Shown here piece by piece: positions 32,998 to 58,600 of a stretch of DNA of 64,000 nt (positions are counted from its first letter, which is position 1; each line of letters starts with the position of its first letter). The notes below the pieces were generated by a model. It worked only from the letters and a program-made list of their open reading frames with translations. It was not told the DNA's origin and did not search any database. A program made the position numbers and the translations under genes. Source of the DNA: Antedon mediterranea (lineage: Eukaryota > Echinodermata > Crinoidea > Comatulida > Antedonidae); assembly GCF_964355755.1 (NCBI RefSeq), contig NC_092672.1, positions 35,646,501 to 35,710,500 of the forward strand. The letters are read 5' to 3'.

Positions 32998-35900
32998 TCA
33001 TTCTAAAAGCCAGTAGTTGTTAAATTTATCCAGTTTGCCTGAAAACAATCCAGAGGGCGCTTCAAACTCCAGCGGGACATGCTTCACTTTCTTGTTGATT
33101 TCGGTTGTAAACATCTAAAAAGGGGAACATAAAAGAACACAAGAATGAAAAAATATAATTAATTTGATTATACTGTACTGTCTTTACTACTTTATAAAAT
33201 CAGATTGTCTTCTACACTCGTTTCTGGGTTCGAATCGTAAAGCAATCATACTGTACTTAGAAATAATATTGTCCCCCTAAAAAACAATTTTTTTGTTGAA
33301 TATGCCATTTTAATGTCACATAATAGTTATTCACTTTGACCAAAAACTGGATTGAAAAAAAATTATTTTCCTGAAAAAATGTAATTAAAAAAAAAAATTA
33401 AAAATACCTAAATTGTCTGTCAAACAATGGTTTTTGGTTAAAATTAACCGTTTCTTAAATAATTATTTTTTTTGATTTTTTTTAAACAGAAGTGAATAAA
33501 TTTATTAAAACTGCGAAATGGCCTATTCAAAGTCTGATTTGTTTAATCTTTATTTTTGGGGACAATACATCTTTAATTATTATTGTGGTGACCCTATATG
33601 AATGACACTAATTCTGTAGAACCAGATTTACTTTTCTAAAAGGAATGTGTTTACAAACCTCATCATAAGAACTTTCATAAAAATCCGTTAAATCCCATTC
33701 AACTTTTGGAAATGGTCTTTCAATGCTGCCTGCTGTAGTGGCTACACTAGGAAGATAGTGATGCTTTAGTGTTTTTAACTCCCAGAGGGAGCTCGCTAAT
33801 GCTCTGCATTTAGACGGGTCTGTCTCATCCGCCAGGAATGGGTCATCTGGTGAATATAAAATAATTTGTTGTCAGGGAACGATCCAGGATTTCCAGGAAC
33901 GGGGGAGTGCTAACATAATAATAAGTTTTAATATCAAAAATAAATATCAAAAAGTAGTTCATAATTTTATTTTAGCGGTCTTTATAATTCGTCGGCTTAG
34001 AAAAGAAGATCCAAATTGGCATTTTAAGGAAATAAAACTTAATAGAAACTTTCTCATGTGATGCTTCCTCACAAATTTTAAGAAGATTCTTTTTTATCTT
34101 TAAATGTTGACGTTTTAGTTGTTTCGCCCAGGGGCGCTCAATTTAAAGCTTGCTTGCTGTGGCGTCCCTTTTCCACTTATATATTTCTTTTCTTGCATTA
34201 TATTCATTATGTTACTCTGTATTTTGTTCTATTATTTGTGAAAATAAATATTATTATTTTATAAGTATTTTATATATAATAAAGTATTCACGCGATATGC
34301 AAATTAGAATGTACATACCTTTCATAGCTTCCGTGTCTCTTGCAATGAGTGTCTTACAAGTTGGATGACGCTTGATTAAGTTGCAAACAAACGGGACAAC
34401 AAGCATCACAGCTGGTGGGGGCGCTGTCAGTGCTAAGCTCGACAATTTTTTAGCAAAGGCTGCAACTAAATATGCTGGTAAATGCCTATAAAGAAATAAA
34501 TAATTGTATTTATTAAGCACTATTGAACTAGTTTGATAAAAAAAAAGTGTGCTCACAATATGGTAGTGATGCTTAAATATGGTAGTGATATGATATCATC
34601 ATGTCCATATAAGGGCACATCACATTTTTTGATAGTGTAGACAGAGCTTTACTTTGCTGAATTTAGTAAACATTTACATTCAAAATTCACACAACCAAAT
34701 GTACATTGGGTATATTTTAGGTTATAAGTCAAGAATCTTGCATTATTTTCAAATATATATTCAAATGGTACAGTAATACCGAGTGCAAAGATCAAATTAA
34801 GTATTGAACCAAATGAAGGCGTATATTGGAAGAATGTGAGCATAATACTTACGAAGACGAGAGGAAAAGGTTGGTCAGGTAAAAAAAACGTGCTTTGTAT
34901 TTCACATGGAATATTGAAGGCTCCAGTAACGAGTACAGCTTCTTGTAAAACTCTGGATATTCTCTACAAAAAATATGATCAAAGAAATGTATCAAAAACA
35001 TAAAATATTAAGTAAGTTCGCCCAGGTTTATCGGCAATAGCGTGCACAACACATGTGGGAAGGATTTGGGAGCAAACGTCACAACGCGTACGTACTTGAT
35101 TTGTTGCTTGGACATACGTGTGATGATGTTTGCTACCAACTCTTCCCATTGCATTGCATTGTGAAATGAAGTTCCTTGCAAAATTTGTTTATTTGTGATA
35201 AATCTTACGTAAAGTGGAGGGGCATAACATCAGCATGAAATAAGAGTTTACAAATGATGATGAATGGTATGCTACTTACAGATTATGTTGAGTCATCAAG
35301 ATGAAGATAGCATTTAGGGCCAATAGGCTAATAGCGCCACCTGTCAAAGAATAAAAATATAGAAATCTATTTGACCTATTATAGCAGAAACGATGGAGAG
35401 TCAAAATCCAACGGTATCGCGGATACGTCAACTTGTATCAGAGAGCCAGTGGCGTTATAGAGAGGCCCCTAGTATAGGAACCCTAAGTGGCACACCAACG
35501 CTGGATGCCTCGGGCGTTTTTAGCCTTTTTCGACATATTTTAATGCCGGTTTTCTTTCTCTGGGAACTGCTCCGGGCACTGCTCCGGGGCCCCTGGGTTA
35601 GCCAGCAAGCGCTCACAGCTGTGAGCTCTCACAACGGCTGTGAGCGCGAGAGAAACCCTGGAATCGACATGCTAATGTTTTCGTCCAGCAGTGTGGACAG
35701 ACAATGGGTGATTATCTGCATTCTATATTTGGTGGGATTATTTTAAAGAATCGCTGATAAATAAAATGCCTGTAATGTTTACTTACCAATATTATATGAT
35801 GCCGTTAAGAAATCTGTTAGCATAACTGGACTGCAATGTTTACTTACCAATATTATATGATGCCGTTAAGAAATCTGTTAGCATAACTGGACTGCAATGT

Positions 35901-38900
35901 TTACTTACCAATATTATATGATGCAGTTAAGAAATCTGTTAGCATAACTGGACCGCAATGTTTACTTACCAATATTATATGATGCCGTTAAGAAATCTGT
36001 TAGCATAACTGGACCGCAATGTTTACTTACCAATATTATATGATGCCGTTAAGAAATCTGTTAGCATAACTGGACTGCAATGTTTACTTACCAATATTAT
36101 ATGATGCCGTTAAGAAATCTGTTAGCATAACTGGACTGCAATGTTTACTTACCAATATTATATGATGCCGTTAAGAAATCTGTTAGCATAACTGGACTGC
36201 AATGTTTACTTACCAATATTATATGATGCTGTTAAGAAATCTGTCAGCATAACTGGACTGCAATGTTTACTTACCAATATTATATGATGCCGTTAAGAAA
36301 TCTGTCAGCATAACTGGACTGCAATGATTACTTACCAATATTATATGATGCCGTTAAGAAATCTGTTAGCATAACTGAATTGAAATTTATATTTATACTG
36401 GGTAACCTCTTCAGTCAAAGACTGGTCTCCCAGAGGGCCCAGTTGGTGATCAGTGGCTGTGATGTACTAATACACCGGGGTAACCCCCTACTCGTCTCGA
36501 AAGATGTACTAGGTTCTTTAAAGTGCACACGAGCTAGATGTGTACACTGGACCTACGGTTTATAGTCCTTATCCGAGAAGACTCGTTCTACCACCAGAAC
36601 CATGGAGTGAGTGAGCCTCGAACCCCTGCCGATGTTATGGCTACGTAATTACGGTTCCACTGTCTTAACCGCTCGGCCACTCACACTTAACCGCTCGGCC
36701 ACTCACACTGGACTGGACTGCAATGTTTACTTACCAATATTATATGATGTCGTTAAGAAATCTGTTAGCATAACTGGACTGCAATGTTTACTTACCAATA
36801 TTATATGATGCCGTTAAGAAATCTGTTAGCATAACTGGACTGCAATGTTTACTTACCAATATTATATGATGCCGTTAAGAAATCTGTCAGCATAACTGGA
36901 CTGCTCATATGAGGAATAACCTTATCGTGCATCATAAACAGAACAGTTTTGTAGGTTTGGAGCGGGAGTGATAATAGAAGGAACGATAACCACGCATTTG
37001 AGAATGCTTTACGCTGCTCCTGCAAAAAACAAGACATATACTTATTTTATTTTTTTTATTTAAAACATAATTAGACAGGATAAAACCTATCTATGGTACT
37101 GGTCGTACTGGTTCAAATAACCGTCTCACAGAGACATCTGGTAGCCATTGACTTAAAGTTGGCATTTGGATGTGTTACTTTTAAATGTACAGTATGTTTT
37201 TGTCATGGCATTTTTTATCGGTATAGATATTGCACCTGTTTTACATATTGTCCTGTTTATTAGAGCAATAGATTAAAAACATTCATAAAAGAAAAGCTTA
37301 AAATAAAACTTTAAAACCACAATACAAAGACAGACAAGAATTACAATGTTAAAAAGATATGAAAAATAAAAGGGAAATATAAAATTAATTGTTTACAAAT
37401 ATAGTAATAGAATAGTCTAAAAAAAGAAAATTTCACATTTCATTTGTTGTTATGAGATTTGGATTTTTTGCTTGTTATGCAAATTCACACAACCTTTGAC
37501 CCACCACTTGGGGTGGGGGGGAGAGAGGGTTATGGTTTGGGTAATGGAATATCAAATTGAACAGAATTGTACTGTAAAAGTTGTAACCTACAGCTGAAGA
37601 ACACCAACAATTATCCCTCAGAGATTCTAACCTTTAATTGTGTTGCCCTAATTTCCTCATCATCAGGTGGCAGCGGAGTTAAGAAATTACTTAGACAGTC
37701 TTCTGTTGGCATGGTAACCTGTTCCAGTAAACAAAGTGTGTTCTTACAGAAAAGTTCTTCTTCCATCTATTGAGAAAAAAAAAAAAAATTCAAATAAATT
37801 TGATTCTCCCATGAACTATGGAATTATAACGATAGTGAATTATAATGGGGATGTGGTTGCGGACTAGTCCATTATGGTCCAGGAGTGTTATAGGAACTTT
37901 TACATTTCGTATCTAAGCCCTCCCTCTGGCTATTGTCGGTTTATCCAGGTAAGCTAGGCACGATATAGACACTGAATTATAATGAGGATTTTGGAAATGA
38001 ATAGCAACCATGTCAAAATTATTATACTGCAATTAATGCAGTAAATAAAGTTAACCCGTTTATACAATGATTTAGAAAGTCTTTTGTTTGTTGTAATCAT
38101 ACACATAATTATTTTCAGTAACTGCCTCATAAAGTTCTATATTGAAATAAGCTGAAATCATGATATAAATTGTAGTTACTGCAGTAACTGCAGTAGAAAA
38201 GTTGACATGATGTCGAAATACCTTTTTCTGGGCAGCATCCAGTTTCTGTACTCTGCTGTTAGTTTCGCGAATCTTTCCACTTACAACTTCTAATGTATAA
38301 AATCTCATGTCATCATATTCTAAATATTCCTGGAACCTGTTCATCAAATGAGTGAAATCCTGCATACTTGATAAAAGGCACGTCAACAATTTCTGTAAAA
38401 ACAATCCAACATGTAATTAATTGAGGTACATTGCAGAGATATAGCTAGAATCAAATATAAGGCATTTAAACATTGAAGGTTTTATACAAATCCTTCTTAA
38501 GTCCTGTTCAGACTACGGAGTTACACTTGTGTATTGTACGCTGAGTACAACTACATAGGTTTGAACCAGGAAAAGATTAGTGGAAGGCATAACTACACGG
38601 ATCTGATCATACCCATAGCTAGAATAAAATATAAGGTTTTATACAAATCCCTCTAAAGGCATGTTCAGACTACGGAGTTATGCTTTTGTATCGTACTACT
38701 CCATAGGTCTGAACCTGGAAAGGATTAGTGGAAGGCATAACTACACAGATCTGATCATACCCATAGCTAGAATAAAATATAAGGCATTGAAGGTTTTATA
38801 CAAATCCCTCAAAAGGTACCTGTTCAGACTACGGAGTTATGCCTTCGTATCGTACTACTCCATAGGTCTGAACCAGGAAAGGATTAGTGGAAGGCATAAC

Positions 38901-40674
38901 TTCTTGGATCTGAACATACCCACAGCTAGAATAAAATAAGGCATTTAAACATTCAATCTTATATACAAATCTAAGTTAGACATTTCCATTCCATAATTTG
39001 GAATTTTACAAATTATTCCTTTTCAAATCAATTTCGAATCATTTTTTATATGTATATATTTTATATGTATTTATATGAATAAAGTAATTGGTGAATATAT
39101 GCTTTCTCCTTGGAATTTATATTTAAAAAAATTAACGATGGTTTAAAAATAATGTACAGTACCTCTAAGGGTGACCTTGGAAAGAAATAACCTTGGTTCT
39201 GCTTCAATGGATTCCTAGACTCTGCCTCCAGAAGTTTTACAATGGTGCACATAGCAAGCTCCTGAGGAATGAAATAGATTATAATAATATGATGGTGTGG
39301 TTTTAATACTTTAGTGTATTTAGGGAGTTTAGCTAGAAAATTAGCATAAATATTTGGTAACATTTATAGAAAAGCAATTCAGTAGACTCTCTCTGTTAGT
39401 ATTCTAGTGAGCATTTTGATTTTTGTCTGCAAACTAGATTCTAGGTAAAGTATGAAAGGCCAAATGTGCCAAAATGTCTATCTTTTTACCAATGTCAAAT
39501 TGGCACCAAAAAGAGTACTGTAGTTTACAGAAAACTAAATCAACCCCACTATACTGTAACTCTATAAGTGAACGTCACTCTATAGAGGGCGTTTAGGGTG
39601 AGACCTCATGGGTTTAAAGATGGAGAGACCCATGTTTTAAATTCATGTTGGAACAACCCAATAAAGTTTTGTATTTATAGCTGGATATCAAGACTTTAGT
39701 GATTGATTACTACCACGATACGATCATAAGTTACAATACCATCCTTCCAGTCCCCATCGACCCCGACCCCCATTTCTCCTTCGCTTGTGCCATTCCTCAC
39801 CTGTGTGATTGGTTTGCTATTTTTGTTTGCAATCACATCAATGAGACATTGAATGCAGTCCTTGTATCTATCTTGTAACCATTGTTTATATTTCTTATCC
39901 TCTTCATCTTCTTTAATAATCATCTCTTGTTTAGCAAGAAGCATGGTGAATATTCTACTGAGACCTTTAATGGCAGCTGTGACAATTGATTTATCTGCAT
40001 CCTGTTGGTGTAAAAATTAAAAAACTACAATATTAGTAATTACCATTATTACTGGCAATAAACAAAACATTTTAAATTTCTTTCAATTTAAATTTATACT
40101 TCTTACTTTAAATGAAATTAGCCATACAGTAACAATTTAAATTTGTTTTAAAACACACACAATAATCGCATATACTACTTTCTATAGACCAGCTATTCAT
40201 ATTGCTCCTGCAAAATTCAGTTCCTTGATTCTTAAACAAAAACTTGATAAATAGTAAACACCCTAAAAATGTATATAATATTAAAAAGCATTGGTTTGGA
40301 CTAATTGAGACGTTCTGGCTCACAAAGTGGGACGTTTCGACCCAATAGTAAGCCGATTTGTTAAACCCGAAATGGGCAGAATCGTCCCGGATTCAATTTT
40401 CCTGGGCCAGGTAGTACTACAGTACTTCTACTAATACTTAGTAATAATAGGCCTAGCTAAGCGCTAGTAGTAGGCCTGTCTAGCGGCCAAGTCTAGTTGC
40501 TATATATGCTCATTGTTGAATTTATTAAAGAAATACACTTACATGTGTCAACTTCAATATGTCTATTATACAATTTGAATTCTTCTTTCCAGATAATGAC
40601 TGCTCTACTTTGCTTTTTATCCCTTTTAAAAGCTGTTTTTTTAAGTCGCACATTGCTTTACTGGGCGCAGCCAT
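32998..40674 (-). CDS. NOC4L: Nucleolar complex protein 4 homologue, 11 exons (514 aa)
   Basis: Exons in transcript order are 40674-40543, 40001-39801, 39261-39163, 38392-38222, 37766-37632, 37019-36857, 35340-35280, 34963-34853, 34485-34319, 33846-33659 and 33114-32998. All have GT-AG borders and consistent phase, giving 514 codons plus stop (human about 516). NOC4 pairs with NOP14 in the nucleolus for small ribosomal subunit assembly and export. Family landmarks are KYKQWLQDRYKDC (exon 2), RFQEYLEYDDMRFYTLE (exon 4), FSNAWLSFL and KVIPHMSSPVMLTDFLTAS (exon 6), ISLLALNAIFILM (exon 7), EYPEFYKKLYSLLEPS with FHVKYKARFFYL (exon 8), and HLPAYLVAAFAKKLSSLALT with CNLIKRHPTCK (exon 9). The acidic stretch and SSLWELKTLKHHY follow in exon 10, and VPLEFEAPSGLF in exon 11. 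The start codon is followed by MAAPSK. The last 44 bases of exon 6 with the donor site are copied about 12 more times in intron 6. Confidence 0.96.
33260..33575. mobile_element. 'ttaaagatgtattgtcccc' MITE, complete, in NOC4L intron 10
   Basis: Starts near aataatattgtccccct and ends ggggacaatacatctttaat. The interior matches 32560-32865 in inverse orientation (attgtctgtcaaacaatgg replaces the ggctgccagccatgg form). Confidence 0.75.
34558..34651. mobile_element. 'tctacactatcaaac' MITE, half copy
   Basis: Carries tatggtagtgatgcttaaat, catcatgtccatataagggc and the terminus gatagtgtagacagagcttt. The opposite terminus is missing. Located in NOC4L intron 8. Confidence 0.65.
35393..35746 (+). CDS. 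Possible nested intronless gene, 117-aa hydrophobic protein
   Basis: An uninterrupted frame lies inside NOC4L intron 6, on the opposite strand, starting 52 bp beyond exon 7. It is clearly richer in G+C than the surrounding intron. The predicted protein has a polar start (MESQNPTVSRIRQLVSES), a hydrophobic middle stretch (SLFRHILMPVFFLWELLRAL), a polar loop with HNGCERERN, and a hydrophobic C-terminal end (WVIICILYLVGLF) that would suit a tail anchor. An AATAAA follows at about 35759, just before the 61-bp minisatellite. I do not recognise the family. It could be a retrocopy, a young gene or a chance frame. Confidence 0.35.
   Translation: MESQNPTVSRIRQLVSESQWRYREAPSIGTLSGTPTLDASGVFSLFRHILMPVFFLWELLRALLRGPWVSQQALTAVSSHNGCERERNPGIDMLMFSSSSVDRQWVIICILYLVGLF
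35766..36377. repeat. 61-bp minisatellite made of NOC4L exon 6 end plus 5' splice site (10 units)
   Basis: Ten tandem units of 61 bp. On the minus strand each unit contains the last 44 bases of NOC4L exon 6 (codons for MLTDFLTASYNI and one base) followed by a perfect donor gtaagt and about 10 further intron bases. Units differ by single bases only (for example gttag/gtcag, gccg/gcag/gctg). A SINE separates these ten from three more units at 36714-36905, the last of which is the true exon end. Confidence 0.95.
36393..36708 (-). mobile_element. tRNA(Leu/Ser)-like SINE, copy S4, inserted in the 61-bp array
   Basis: Minus-strand head with the box A region gtggccgagcggttaaga and box B ggttcgaggct. 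The body is like S2 (ctcggataaggactataaac) but the tail is diverged. The gccgagcggttaag head piece occurs twice (near 36670 and 36690), a small tandem duplication. It interrupts the NOC4L intron 6 minisatellite. Confidence 0.75.
36714..36905. repeat. 61-bp minisatellite, 3 exon-proximal units
   Basis: Three units directly adjoin NOC4L exon 6. The rightmost one contains the genuine exon 6 end with the donor at 36856-36851. It shows that the array grew from the exon border into intron 6. Confidence 0.95.
38443..38945. repeat. Tandem repeat of about 150-170 bp in NOC4L intron 3
   Basis: About 3.3 units, each starting agctagaataaaatataagg and containing gttcagactacggagttatg, gtactactccataggtctga and aggattagtggaaggcataa. 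Open frames over it are by-products of the repeat. Confidence 0.88.
40314..40420. repeat. Fragment related to the 61057 'cgattcggccc' element
   Basis: The stretch with cacaaagtgggacgtttcga and cagaatcgtcccggattcaa resembles the inner and terminal parts of the element at 61057-61618. It lies in NOC4L intron 1. Confidence 0.45.
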
Positions 40675-48585: not shown

Positions 48586-51500
48586 ATGGAAATCTTTCTA
48601 CAATTTATGGTATTTTATCTGTTTCTAGGGGTAACATGTATAGAATCGATACGAAAAGTTGAATCTAATCAGAAAAATGTACATCGTACTCATATTTTTA
48701 ACAAGTTACACAAGGCAGACGTTAAACTTTTGTGGAATAAAGAGGTAAAGCCTAAAGGAGGCTAGGCCTACTAGCTGTTTACAGTTTACTCTCTTCAGCA
48801 GCAGCACTTCTACCTTGACAAACAGTCAACTACACAACAATGATTAGTCATGATTGAACTAGGCCTACTAGTAATACTTATTAATTACTAATGGCGTAGT
48901 AGGGCTAGCTAGAGTTGGCAGTAGGAAGGAAGTCTAAAGGAAAAAGAGTAAAATATTAATAGTGAATTTTATTGTATAAATTATCTTTCATTTATGACAT
49001 GTATGATGGGAATCCTGTATGATGTGTACTCTACTTTTTTTTTTATAGATGTTGCAGCAAACGAAGAAACCAATACATTCCAACGCAATTAATACAAAAA
49101 ATAGAGAAAGTACTACAAACTATTATTTTAATATTAACGAAAATTATGCTACACAAAAGCCTTTGAAGAATTTACGAAAAAGACAATTTTTTGGAGTTGG
49201 TTTTCCTTACCAAAGAAAGTTTAGAAAACTGGATTTTGAGGCTGACCATAAAAGAATATCAGGAAATGTTGTGTTACAAAATGCTGAGAAAAGTGGAAAA
49301 AAAAGAACAAACAGTAAACAAATTGAGAATCGACATCACATGGATAAAAGAGAGGTGCTTCCAGACTCTAAGGAAAATAAGAACGAAAACATACCTTCCA
49401 TCAAACCACCTTCCGACAATCCATCAATGACCACAGTAAAAGAAGCTGAACATACAACCCCTACCATAAACAAACATTACAGTACATTATTGGATGTTAA
49501 ACCTATAGCACATACAACAACACGTACAACAACACTAGATAAAACAACACAAAAAGAACCACATAAAACTCCACTACATAAAACAACAACACAAAAAGCA
49601 CCACTTCTTAAAACAACACATATAACACCACATTTACACACTGAAATGAAAAGTAAATCTAGCAGAGCCATACGCAAGACATTACCCGTCACTGCTATTC
49701 CGCAACAAACCACGAAAAAAATCTTACATGGCGCCCCTACAGACGGTATCCACTCAAATGTGGAAGAGCTTCAAGAACGTAAGACCCAGTGTAAAGACGG
49801 ACATTGCTTTTTGTCAAATGCCCCTGGATCCCGATTCAGTGATGGAACTTGGGCCGTTGCCAGTATGATGTTCATTTTATTGTTGTTGACGTTTTCTGTA
49901 TTGTACACAGGCTTGTGGAAGAAAAGAAATAGTTTTATTTACGGATTTAAAAACAGAGATGATGGTGCTGCCTCTCAACAGTATAATAAAACTACCGTTT
50001 CTGGTAAATAACATTCAATTTTGATTTATAATTATTTTTCATACAAAATTCAGTCACAACACGGGTTAGTTGCTACAGTGTCTTGTCATGTAACCATGTA
50101 CCTATAAATTAGATTTATTTATAGGTCCATGATGAAACCCAAAGCATGTTTTGTCACATGTGTGTGTTTGGCCAATCACAAGTCAGCATCTGATAAACAC
50201 ACAGTATACTAAAACAATATCCTTTTCTATCATCAATTGTACAATACATAGCATTTTATTGTATTACAAAAACATCAGCTGTTTATACATACGGTAGTCT
50301 ATTCTGGCTCTGCTAATTTTTCTGGCTGTTTTACTTTATTGTTTTGATTTAGCTTTTCGCTTTTTTTTTGTATCTCCATTGGGATCCAGCCACTGATACC
50401 CACAACATTGTCATTTTTTCAGTGCTTATTTTATTTTGTATCTCCATTAAGATCCAGCCACTGATACCCACAGCATTGTCATTTTGTATCTCCATTGGGA
50501 TCCAGCCACTGATACCCACAGCAGTGTCATTTTTTCAGTGCTTATTTTATTTTGTATCTCCATTAAGATCCAGCCACTGATACCCACAGCATTGTCATTT
50601 TTTCAGTGCTTTTTTTATTTTGTATCACCATTGAGATCCAGCCTCTGATACCCACAGCATTGTCATTTTTTCAGTGCTTATTTTATTTTGTATCTCCATT
50701 GAGATCCAGCCACTGATACCCACAGCATTGTCATTTTTTCAGTGCTTTTTTTATTTTGTATCACCATTGAGATCCAGCCTCTGATACCCACAGCATTGTC
50801 ATTTTTTCAGTGCTTATTTTATTTTGTATCTCCATTGAGATCCAGCCACTGATACCCACAGCATTGTCATTTTTTCAGTGCTTTTTTTATTTTGTATCAC
50901 CATTGAGATCCAGCCTCTGATACCCACAGCATTGTCATTTTTTCAGTGCTTATTTTATTTTGTATCTCCATTGAGATCCAGCCTCTGATACCCACAGCAT
51001 TGTCATTTTTTCAGTGCTTATTTTATTTTGTATCTCCATTGAGATCCAGCCACTGATACCCACAGCATTGTCATTTTTTTTAGTAATTTACCTTTAGATT
51101 TTTAGTCCATTCTATTAACACAGGTTTTCATCACTACTCTTGCTCAACTGGCATTTAATACATAATTTGTTATACATAATAATACAGAAATTCATAGCAT
51201 TCATACTTACAATTATTAAATACTGTATTGATTAAAGAACATGACGGCTGTGAAACCTAAGCCATCCTTTAAGGTCATTGGTGGCATAATAAGAACAAAA
51301 AGTAGCGGCAGCTGGTAACACATGCTATCTCACACCATGTTATAAAAATAACTATTGCGTTAAATAATATTTCAATGCTTTGAATTGAATGTAGTACATT
51401 TACAGATTATTTTGAGTGTTAAGATTATTCTTAATGAAAACCTTTCGTTGTTAACATTTTCTATTCGAATTATTATTATTATCTTTATGTGGATTTGAAA

Positions 51501-55649: not shown

Positions 55650-58600
55650 TTATGAGTATTCCTGATGTAATAGTGAATTCATATAATGTGAGATTTCTTG
55701 ACAATCTGGAGATTGTAACATGTTCACTTGCAAGTTTAAATCGTTCTCCACTTGTTTTTTATCCTACAAAATAAAAGATGCAAATATCATTGTGCGGTGC
55801 TTAGTATTATTACGATAAATTAAGTTCCACACTTGATTATTTTCCACAAACAAATTAAAAATAACATTTGGTATACTTTGTTCTGTTCATTGAGGTTTGG
55901 TGTTAACAAGGAATTGGGTTCATGCTTACAAATATGTATAACCCAAGGGCCCAATCTATATTGAATGTTGTGGGGGGAGGGGGAGACAGAAACTTAGGGA
56001 GTAAAGCTCTGTCTACACTATCAAACTAGTTCAACAAAAAAATGTGATGTGCCCAAATATGGTAGTGATATCCTTAAATATGGTAGTGATATGACATCAT
56101 CATGTCCATATATAGGCACATTACATTTTTTGTCACACAAAATTTGATAGTTTAGACAGAGCTTAAAAAACATTAATATACAAAAAAAAATGGAAACAAT
56201 TCGAGACTTAGAACACCATTCAAGTTCTAGATAATTAGCAACGAATATATAATATAAAAGATAAATCCCAAGGCAAAGTACTGAAAAAATGACAATGCTG
56301 TGGGTATCAGTGGCTGGATCTCAATGGAGATACAAAAATAAAAAAAGCACTAAAAAAATGACAATGCTGTGGGTATCAGAGGCTGGATCTCAATGGTGAT
56401 ACAAAATAAAATAAGCACTGAAAAAATGACAATGCTGTGGGTATCAGTGGCTGGATCTCAATGGAGATACAAAATAAAAAAAGCACTGAAAAAATGACAA
56501 TGCTGTGGGTATCAGAGGCTGGATCTCAATGGTGATACAAAATAAAAAAAGCACTGAAAAAATGACAATGCTGTGGGTATCAGTGGCTGGATCTCAATGG
56601 AGATACAAAATAAAATAAGCACTGAAAAAATGACAATGTTGTGGGTATCAGTGGCTGGATCTCACTGGAGATACAAAATAAAATAAGCACTGAAAAAATG
56701 ACAATGTTGTGGGTATCAGTGGCTGGATCTCAATGGAGGTACAAAATAAAATAAGCACTGAAAAAATGACAATGCTGTGGGTATCAGTGGCTGGATCTCA
56801 ATGGAGATACAAAAAAAAAGCGAAAAGCTAAATCAAAACGAGAAGTAAAACAGCCAGAAAAGTTAGCAGAGCTTTATATAAAAGATAAAATATATAATAA
56901 ATGGTCAAACAAATAGTGTCATTATAGTACATGTGATTTAAGAGAATTTAAATTGCAAAAAATTTCTAAAGTAAAAGAATTTTTAATATTTAAAAAAAAT
57001 GAAAACCTTTTATTTTTTCATTATTGACTGAAAGAAACAATTGTATAACTTACAGCAAAATAACCGACAGGATTTGGCAGTGGTGGTAGGCCCAGCTGAT
57101 CTACATAAGGATCCTCTAAGACTGGATGTATCTTAGAAAAGAAACAAGAAATTTGTTTGCTAAATATACAAATAATTATAATATTCTTTCTTTTTTTTAT
57201 TTCAGAAATATCATCCAATATTAAAAATACAATTAACAATATCAAAACTAGTTGTTTATAAATTAAAATATTTGAAAGTTAACTTACTCCTATATCATTA
57301 TTATTTTCAGCATCCCCAACTCTATTTTCAAAAGTTGTTAACTCTTCTTCTTTTGCTTCTATCAATCTTAAATGAAATTTTACGGATCAAATAAAATTCC
57401 GAGGACAAACTTTTACGCTATCATTAAACTAGGACATTAGTAATGCATGGTTCCCACAATGACATAACGCAACATAAGGGGTTTGACCAATCACAAGCGA
57501 TGAATTATTCAAACTGTTGCTTGTCATTTGTCAAATTTCTTGCGTCTCTGTCTTTGCGCTGCGTCCTATTGGTTAACTTTATTAAAACTGCAAAATGGCC
57601 CATTCAAAGTCTTTCTGAAAATAATTTCATTTTTCCTGTTTTTGGTTAATGATAAAACATTTTTTATTAAGGATTTTCTTATCGTTTCTGTTTATAGATT
57701 TCTCATTCATAATAATACTGCATGTGACCTACTTTTCCATTCGTTCAATTTCTTCATCCAGTGCTTCTGATTGTACTTTATTTTCTACAAGTGTTTCTTC
57801 TAGTATACTCTGAAACAATAGGCAAGAAAAATAAATAAAAGATAAAATAATTTGCAGAGAGAAGAGGATGAAACACAGTGCTAGTTCTATGAGAGATTTG
57901 TTGGTTCAAATTGCTCCTTCATTAGTACTGTACCTCCATGGGTCAATGGCTAATACAAACCCATGACGACAAGAATATAAACCCTCTTGGTAACTGGTCA
58001 GTTTTACGAAATTTAATATCTACATTACAAGCTCTGTCTGCATTATCAAACTTTATTTGACAAAAAAATGTGATTATGATATGGACATGATGATGTCATA
58101 TCACTACCATATTTAGGCATATTGCTACCATATTTGGGTGCATCACACTTTTGATAGTGTAGACAGGACTACTAATGTCTAGCATAACTGAATTCGGGCT
58201 AAAAAAATGTGATGATATGGACATGATGATGTCATATCACTACCATATTTAGGCATATTGCTACCATATTTGGGTGCATCACACTTTTGATAGTGTAGAC
58301 AGGACTACTAATGTCTAGCATAACTGAATTCGGGCTAAAAAAATGTGATGATATGGACATGATGTCATATCACTACCATATTTAGGCATATTGCTACCAT
58401 ATTTGGGTGCATCACACTTTTGATAGTGTAGACAGGACTACTAATGTCTAGCATAACTGAATTCGGGCTAAAAAAATGTGATGATATGGACATGATGATG
58501 TCATATCACTACCATATTTAGGCATATTGCTACCATATTTGGGTGCATCACACTTTTGATAGTGTAGACAGGACTACTAATGTCTAGCATAACTGAATTC

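Follow-up and report, generated by a model that had tools for sequence, protein, structure and literature searches.

A minisatellite in the genome of Antedon mediterranea has taken up the end of a coding exon together with its 5' splice site. At the end of exon 6 of NOC4L, 13 minus-strand copies of ATTG|GTAAGT lie at 61-bp spacing and form an array at positions 35774-36904 of the window, by which we mean the whole 64-kb stretch of DNA that was analysed. The real donor (G at 36856) is followed downstream by 12 perfect decoy donors. The array has an anatomy of the IFI6 kind and is most likely a tolerated by-product, and its value is as one of at least three natural donor series.

The array at the end of NOC4L exon 6

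The gene was modelled by homology and reading frame, and the features discussed below are as follows.

32998-40674, minus strand: NOC4L gene, 11 coding exons, 514 aa, ATG at 40674 (homology and frame model)
36857-37019, minus strand: exon 6, 163 nt, ending ...TCATATAATATTG, phase 1 (splice-site and frame model, and NOC4L match across the exon 6/7 junction)
35341-36856, minus strand: intron 6, 1516 nt; decoy units and a SINE make up about 1070 nt
35280-35340, minus strand: exon 7 (GGAISLLALNAIFILMTQHNL)
36844-36904, minus strand: unit 1, with the real exon end (48 nt), the real donor GTAAGT at 36856 and 13 intronic nt
36722-36843, minus strand: units 2-3, with decoy donors at 36795 and 36734
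36378-36711, minus strand: young SINE at the edge of a unit, splitting the array 3+10, with a 22-bp head repeat
35774-36377, minus strand: units 4-13, with decoy donors at 36335, 36274, 36213, 36152, 36091, 36030, 35969, 35908, 35847 and 35786

An earlier note on this DNA had named the gene as NOC4L, and searches bear the name out. The product matches the human NOC4L chain 7mq8_SU (E 4e-88) and fungal Noc4 (E 1e-86), the homology to Noc4 is full length, and the CBF/Mak21 domain is recognized by Pfam (CBF, PF03914; E 7e-48). The reading frame is intact and open throughout. Moreover, the alignment is continuous over the exon 6/7 junction, where DFLTASYNIG|GAISLLAL stands against DFLTRACDLG|GALSLLAL. 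NOC4L is single copy by protein search of the genome, and the 61-bp unit matches these 13 sites alone in the 354-Mb assembly. A paralogue or retrocopy as the source of the units was ruled out, as unit and gene are both single-copy.

TRF divides the array into blocks of 10.0 and 3.2 copies with a period of 61 and a 98% match. The donor is perfect in 13 of 13 units, as the earlier note had described, and identical over positions -3 to +6. The true end of exon 6 lies in the exon-proximal unit, in agreement with the splice-site and frame model. Thus, as also claimed, the donor itself was amplified into intron 6. The edges of the array are clean: the exon flank reads ATGA|GCAGTCC and the intron flank AACATT|ACAGGC, as compared with AACATT|GCAGTCC at the junctions between units. 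Those edges set the copied segment at 48 exonic bases (GCAGTCC...ATATTG) plus 13 intronic bases (GTAAGTAAACATT), rather than the 44 coding bases per unit given previously. Each unit contains gtaagtaaacattgcag, in which the donor stands 17 nt from an AG, a distance below intron length and with no pyrimidine tract; splicing from one unit to another may nevertheless occur.

Whether the units match exon 6 was one of the points on which the earlier note had let its reading stand or fall, and they do match, at 93-100% likeness to the exon copy. The exon copy (donor 36856) differs from most decoys by one synonymous change, CTG versus CTA. The unit with the decoy at 36274 is the same as the exon copy over all 61 bp, and the two units adjoining the exon differ from it, which indicates that turnover has reshuffled the units. 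The case shows that the end of a coding exon can become part of minisatellite turnover and have sequence variants in common with its copies in the intron.

The SINE separates the two blocks, as previously reported, and is about 335 bp long; its match to other copies stops at 36706, and positions 36707-36711 are an ambiguous junction. The family is high-copy and very young, and among 40 copies scored from 2376 candidates, many were 99-100% identical, such that the insertion into the array is probably recent. A canonical tRNA or Rfam family was rejected for the element, as the comparisons gave no match. From box-like motifs, its head may be tRNA-like. Genome-wide, copies of 99-100% identity occur on most contigs, and some carry a duplicated 22-bp head.

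Outcome of decoy use and choice of donor

Every decoy leads to the same dead end. Translation that continues beyond the real donor meets ATT GGT AAG TAA, an immediate in-frame stop, and hence the frame model gives one identical 302-residue truncation, ending ...YNIGK*, for all 12 decoys. The earlier note had explained unproductive decoys by a unit length that is not divisible by three. That the decoys are unproductive holds, but the cause is the in-frame TAA and the added length is irrelevant: for three decoys the added length (582, 765 and 948 nt) is divisible by three, and the stop is met all the same. Transcripts derived from decoys would be expected to undergo nonsense-mediated decay.

The minisatellite of IFI6 is built from a short unit of 12 bp. 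Like the NOC4L array, the IFI6 (6-16, G1P3) minisatellite is an exon-end repeat with a consensus donor in each unit, the real donor being followed by copies of itself, and two downstream units serve as donors, so that three mRNA species arise and different isoforms are encoded (Turri, Cuin and Porter 1995, Nucleic Acids Res 23:1854, as related in PMC4526556). IFI6 is the clear precedent for the NOC4L array and the closest one. The NOC4L array differs from IFI6 in that its unit is 61 bp and holds 48 nt of coding exon, and in that every decoy leads to an immediate stop whereas the IFI6 donors lead to isoforms. NOC4L decoys offer no alternative coding products and all end at ...YNIGK*, and we therefore class the array by its anatomy, as a donor-bearing exon-end minisatellite and not as an isoform generator.

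Neither donor strength nor predicted RNA structure distinguishes the real donor from its copies. The exon 6 donor has a U1 pairing energy of -10.7 kcal/mol, second strongest of the ten NOC4L donors, and the decoys share that donor. Hiding of the decoys by structure was considered and rejected, as predicted 9-nt accessibility was 0.052 for the real donor and 0.007-0.085 for the decoys, with no clear separation.

Position may decide. Carranza et al. 2022 placed two identical donors in minigenes in human cells and found that, with flanking introns of 365 nt, the upstream donor was used exclusively, and short introns favored the downstream donor instead (PMC9225289). Introns 5 and 6 of NOC4L (612 and 1516 nt) are both long by that measure. 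The minigenes resemble NOC4L in that isogenic donors differ in position alone in an exon-defined setting, but they carry two designed donors in human cells, whereas NOC4L, DHX8 and eIF3L (the latter two described below) present 13, 22 and 14 natural copies, respectively, in an animal genome. Donor choice set by exon definition fits both the minigene results and the need for intact NOC4L. Only the first donor yields an intact core ribosome-assembly factor, and it is thus most likely that splicing relies mainly on that donor. Some use of decoys is plausible, given that two of the downstream units act as donors in IFI6.

Other exon-end arrays and the minisatellite load

The NOC4L locus, on the sequences compared, is not singular in kind. 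A scan was made for arrays with at least three strong donor words, and 13 other array regions were inspected. Among these, two further exon-end donor arrays were found, in DHX8 and eIF3L, such that the genome has at least three, the three found all lying in conserved core genes. By reading-frame inspection of the stretches covered, the other 11 regions lacked an end of a coding exon within the array; in three of the 11 (L081, L082 and L087) the array reaches an edge of the stretch covered. The DHX8 and eIF3L arrays are independent of the one in NOC4L.

The array in DHX8, a Prp22 homologue (C1:17774800-17778600, L085), repeats a 37-bp unit in which about 31 nt of exon end are joined to GTAAGT, and its 22 donors occupy nearly the whole intron. 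The exon ends ...ITVMQIHLTEPPG and the following exon reads DILMFLTGQEEID...; once joined, the two exons match human DHX8 with an E value of 3e-198. Here too read-through reaches a stop (GKLYANSFN*). About 87 nt separate the last DHX8 decoy from the acceptor. At that distance an intron-definition rule would favor the decoy, and the site offers a sharp test of intron definition versus exon definition. The array in eIF3L (C1:18594500-18597900, L086) consists of 29- and 55-bp units that begin at the real donor and contain 14 donors; its exons match human eIF3L with an E value of 2e-43.

Arrays are abundant in this genome. With a period of at least 10 and at least 4 copies, 14 arrays fill 8% of the 64-kb window, and in a small sample around SINE copies arrays make up 10%. 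Rough extrapolation from the one window gives a genome load on the order of 77,000 arrays, and if these were seeded uniformly and neutrally over 75,000-200,000 introns (gene and intron counts assumed), several hundred to two thousand arrays would span a donor. Arrays with a triple GGTAAGT gave 1536 matches against 2297 for the reversed word, and thus no excess; donor words were not enriched in arrays overall, with longer words giving mixed results dominated by a few large arrays. A high array load with no excess of donor words argues that chance seeding on exon ends suffices and that no special donor-capture mechanism is needed.

Selection that degrades decoys was also considered. None was seen in NOC4L, where 0 of 9 donor columns vary across units versus 8 of 52 other columns, and none was clear in DHX8, where the counts are 2 of 9 and 12 of 28. 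Coding constraint on the decoys was likewise rejected, as the exonic columns that vary include all codon positions.

Explanations for the array

We consider it likely that the array arose by chance as a by-product of a very minisatellite-rich genome, and that it is tolerated since the exon-proximal donor wins and the decoys leave with the intron. On this reading a 61-bp segment across the boundary of exon 6 and intron 6 (48 plus 13 bases) was duplicated in tandem, ordinary minisatellite turnover brought the array to 13 units or more, and a young SINE inserted later. The exon-proximal donor would win by exon definition and by being transcribed first, and the decoys would be removed together with intron 6. 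We infer that splicing takes the first donor, and that decoys are seldom used and the resulting transcripts cleared by nonsense-mediated decay. Exon-end donor arrays are probably a recurring by-product of repeat formation in A. mediterranea. Tandem duplication across exon-intron boundaries is known from intron gain, where, as in NOC4L, the duplicated segment carries splice signals along (PMC4974935). In that case one duplication on the acceptor side made a new intron, whereas in NOC4L the donor side is present 13 times in an existing intron and no new one was needed.

Alternatively, splicing into decoys could be regulated, with some transcripts taking decoys to the common TAA-terminated product and the ratio tuning NOC4L output. 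In favor of regulation, 12 of 12 decoys are perfect donors with one common premature stop, they are as strong as a real donor that ranks second in its gene, and donors in the IFI6 array are used. Similar arrays in unrelated housekeeping genes and the lack of a donor excess in arrays point to chance instead, however; an array of volatile size makes a poor regulator, and the minigene results favor the upstream donor (PMC9225289). We regard regulation as unlikely. We are equally doubtful of a broader proposal, that exon-end donor arrays are widespread in this genome and their decoys are sampled by the spliceosome, resulting in unproductive splicing that depends on copy number and varies between individuals.

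Perhaps the repeats act as a platform for U1, and the binding of multiple U1 snRNPs helps exon 6 to be recognized or keeps intron 6 from premature polyadenylation. There are indeed 13 identical U1 sites in 1.1 kb and one AATAAA/ATTAAA signal within intron 6, but the real donor is strong already and that single motif is all there is to guard against, and we give a U1 platform very little chance. Finally, the array might have been wrongly expanded during assembly, as tandem arrays are commonly mis-sized and this one is known from one assembly. The units carry distinguishing variants, the junction with the SINE is unique and both edges of the array are clean, which makes an artefact highly improbable, though the copy number could still be off.

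How one donor is chosen among identical ones is a long-standing question in splicing and has been studied mostly with designed minigenes. The three arrays, each in a conserved gene of the same genome, are natural isogenic series with 13, 22 and 14 donors, of which the first alone gives a full protein. RNA-seq of A. mediterranea could read out the donor-choice rule directly.

Other arrays were noted in passing. In the window, one 68-bp unit forms two arrays in opposite orientation, at 50481-51079 and 56276-56819, 5 kb apart. Elsewhere, long arrays about 0.9 Mb apart in the C1:2482500 and C1:3417100 regions (L081 and L082) are built from a common 66-bp unit that bears GGTAAGT, which suggests that some arrays are dispersed families. 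Candidate exon-end arrays with repeated strong donors also lie at C11:21294135-21294428, C5:18870157-18870844 and C4:35201091-35201374, and further such candidates at C6:30480007-30481557 and C6:30503553-30504144.
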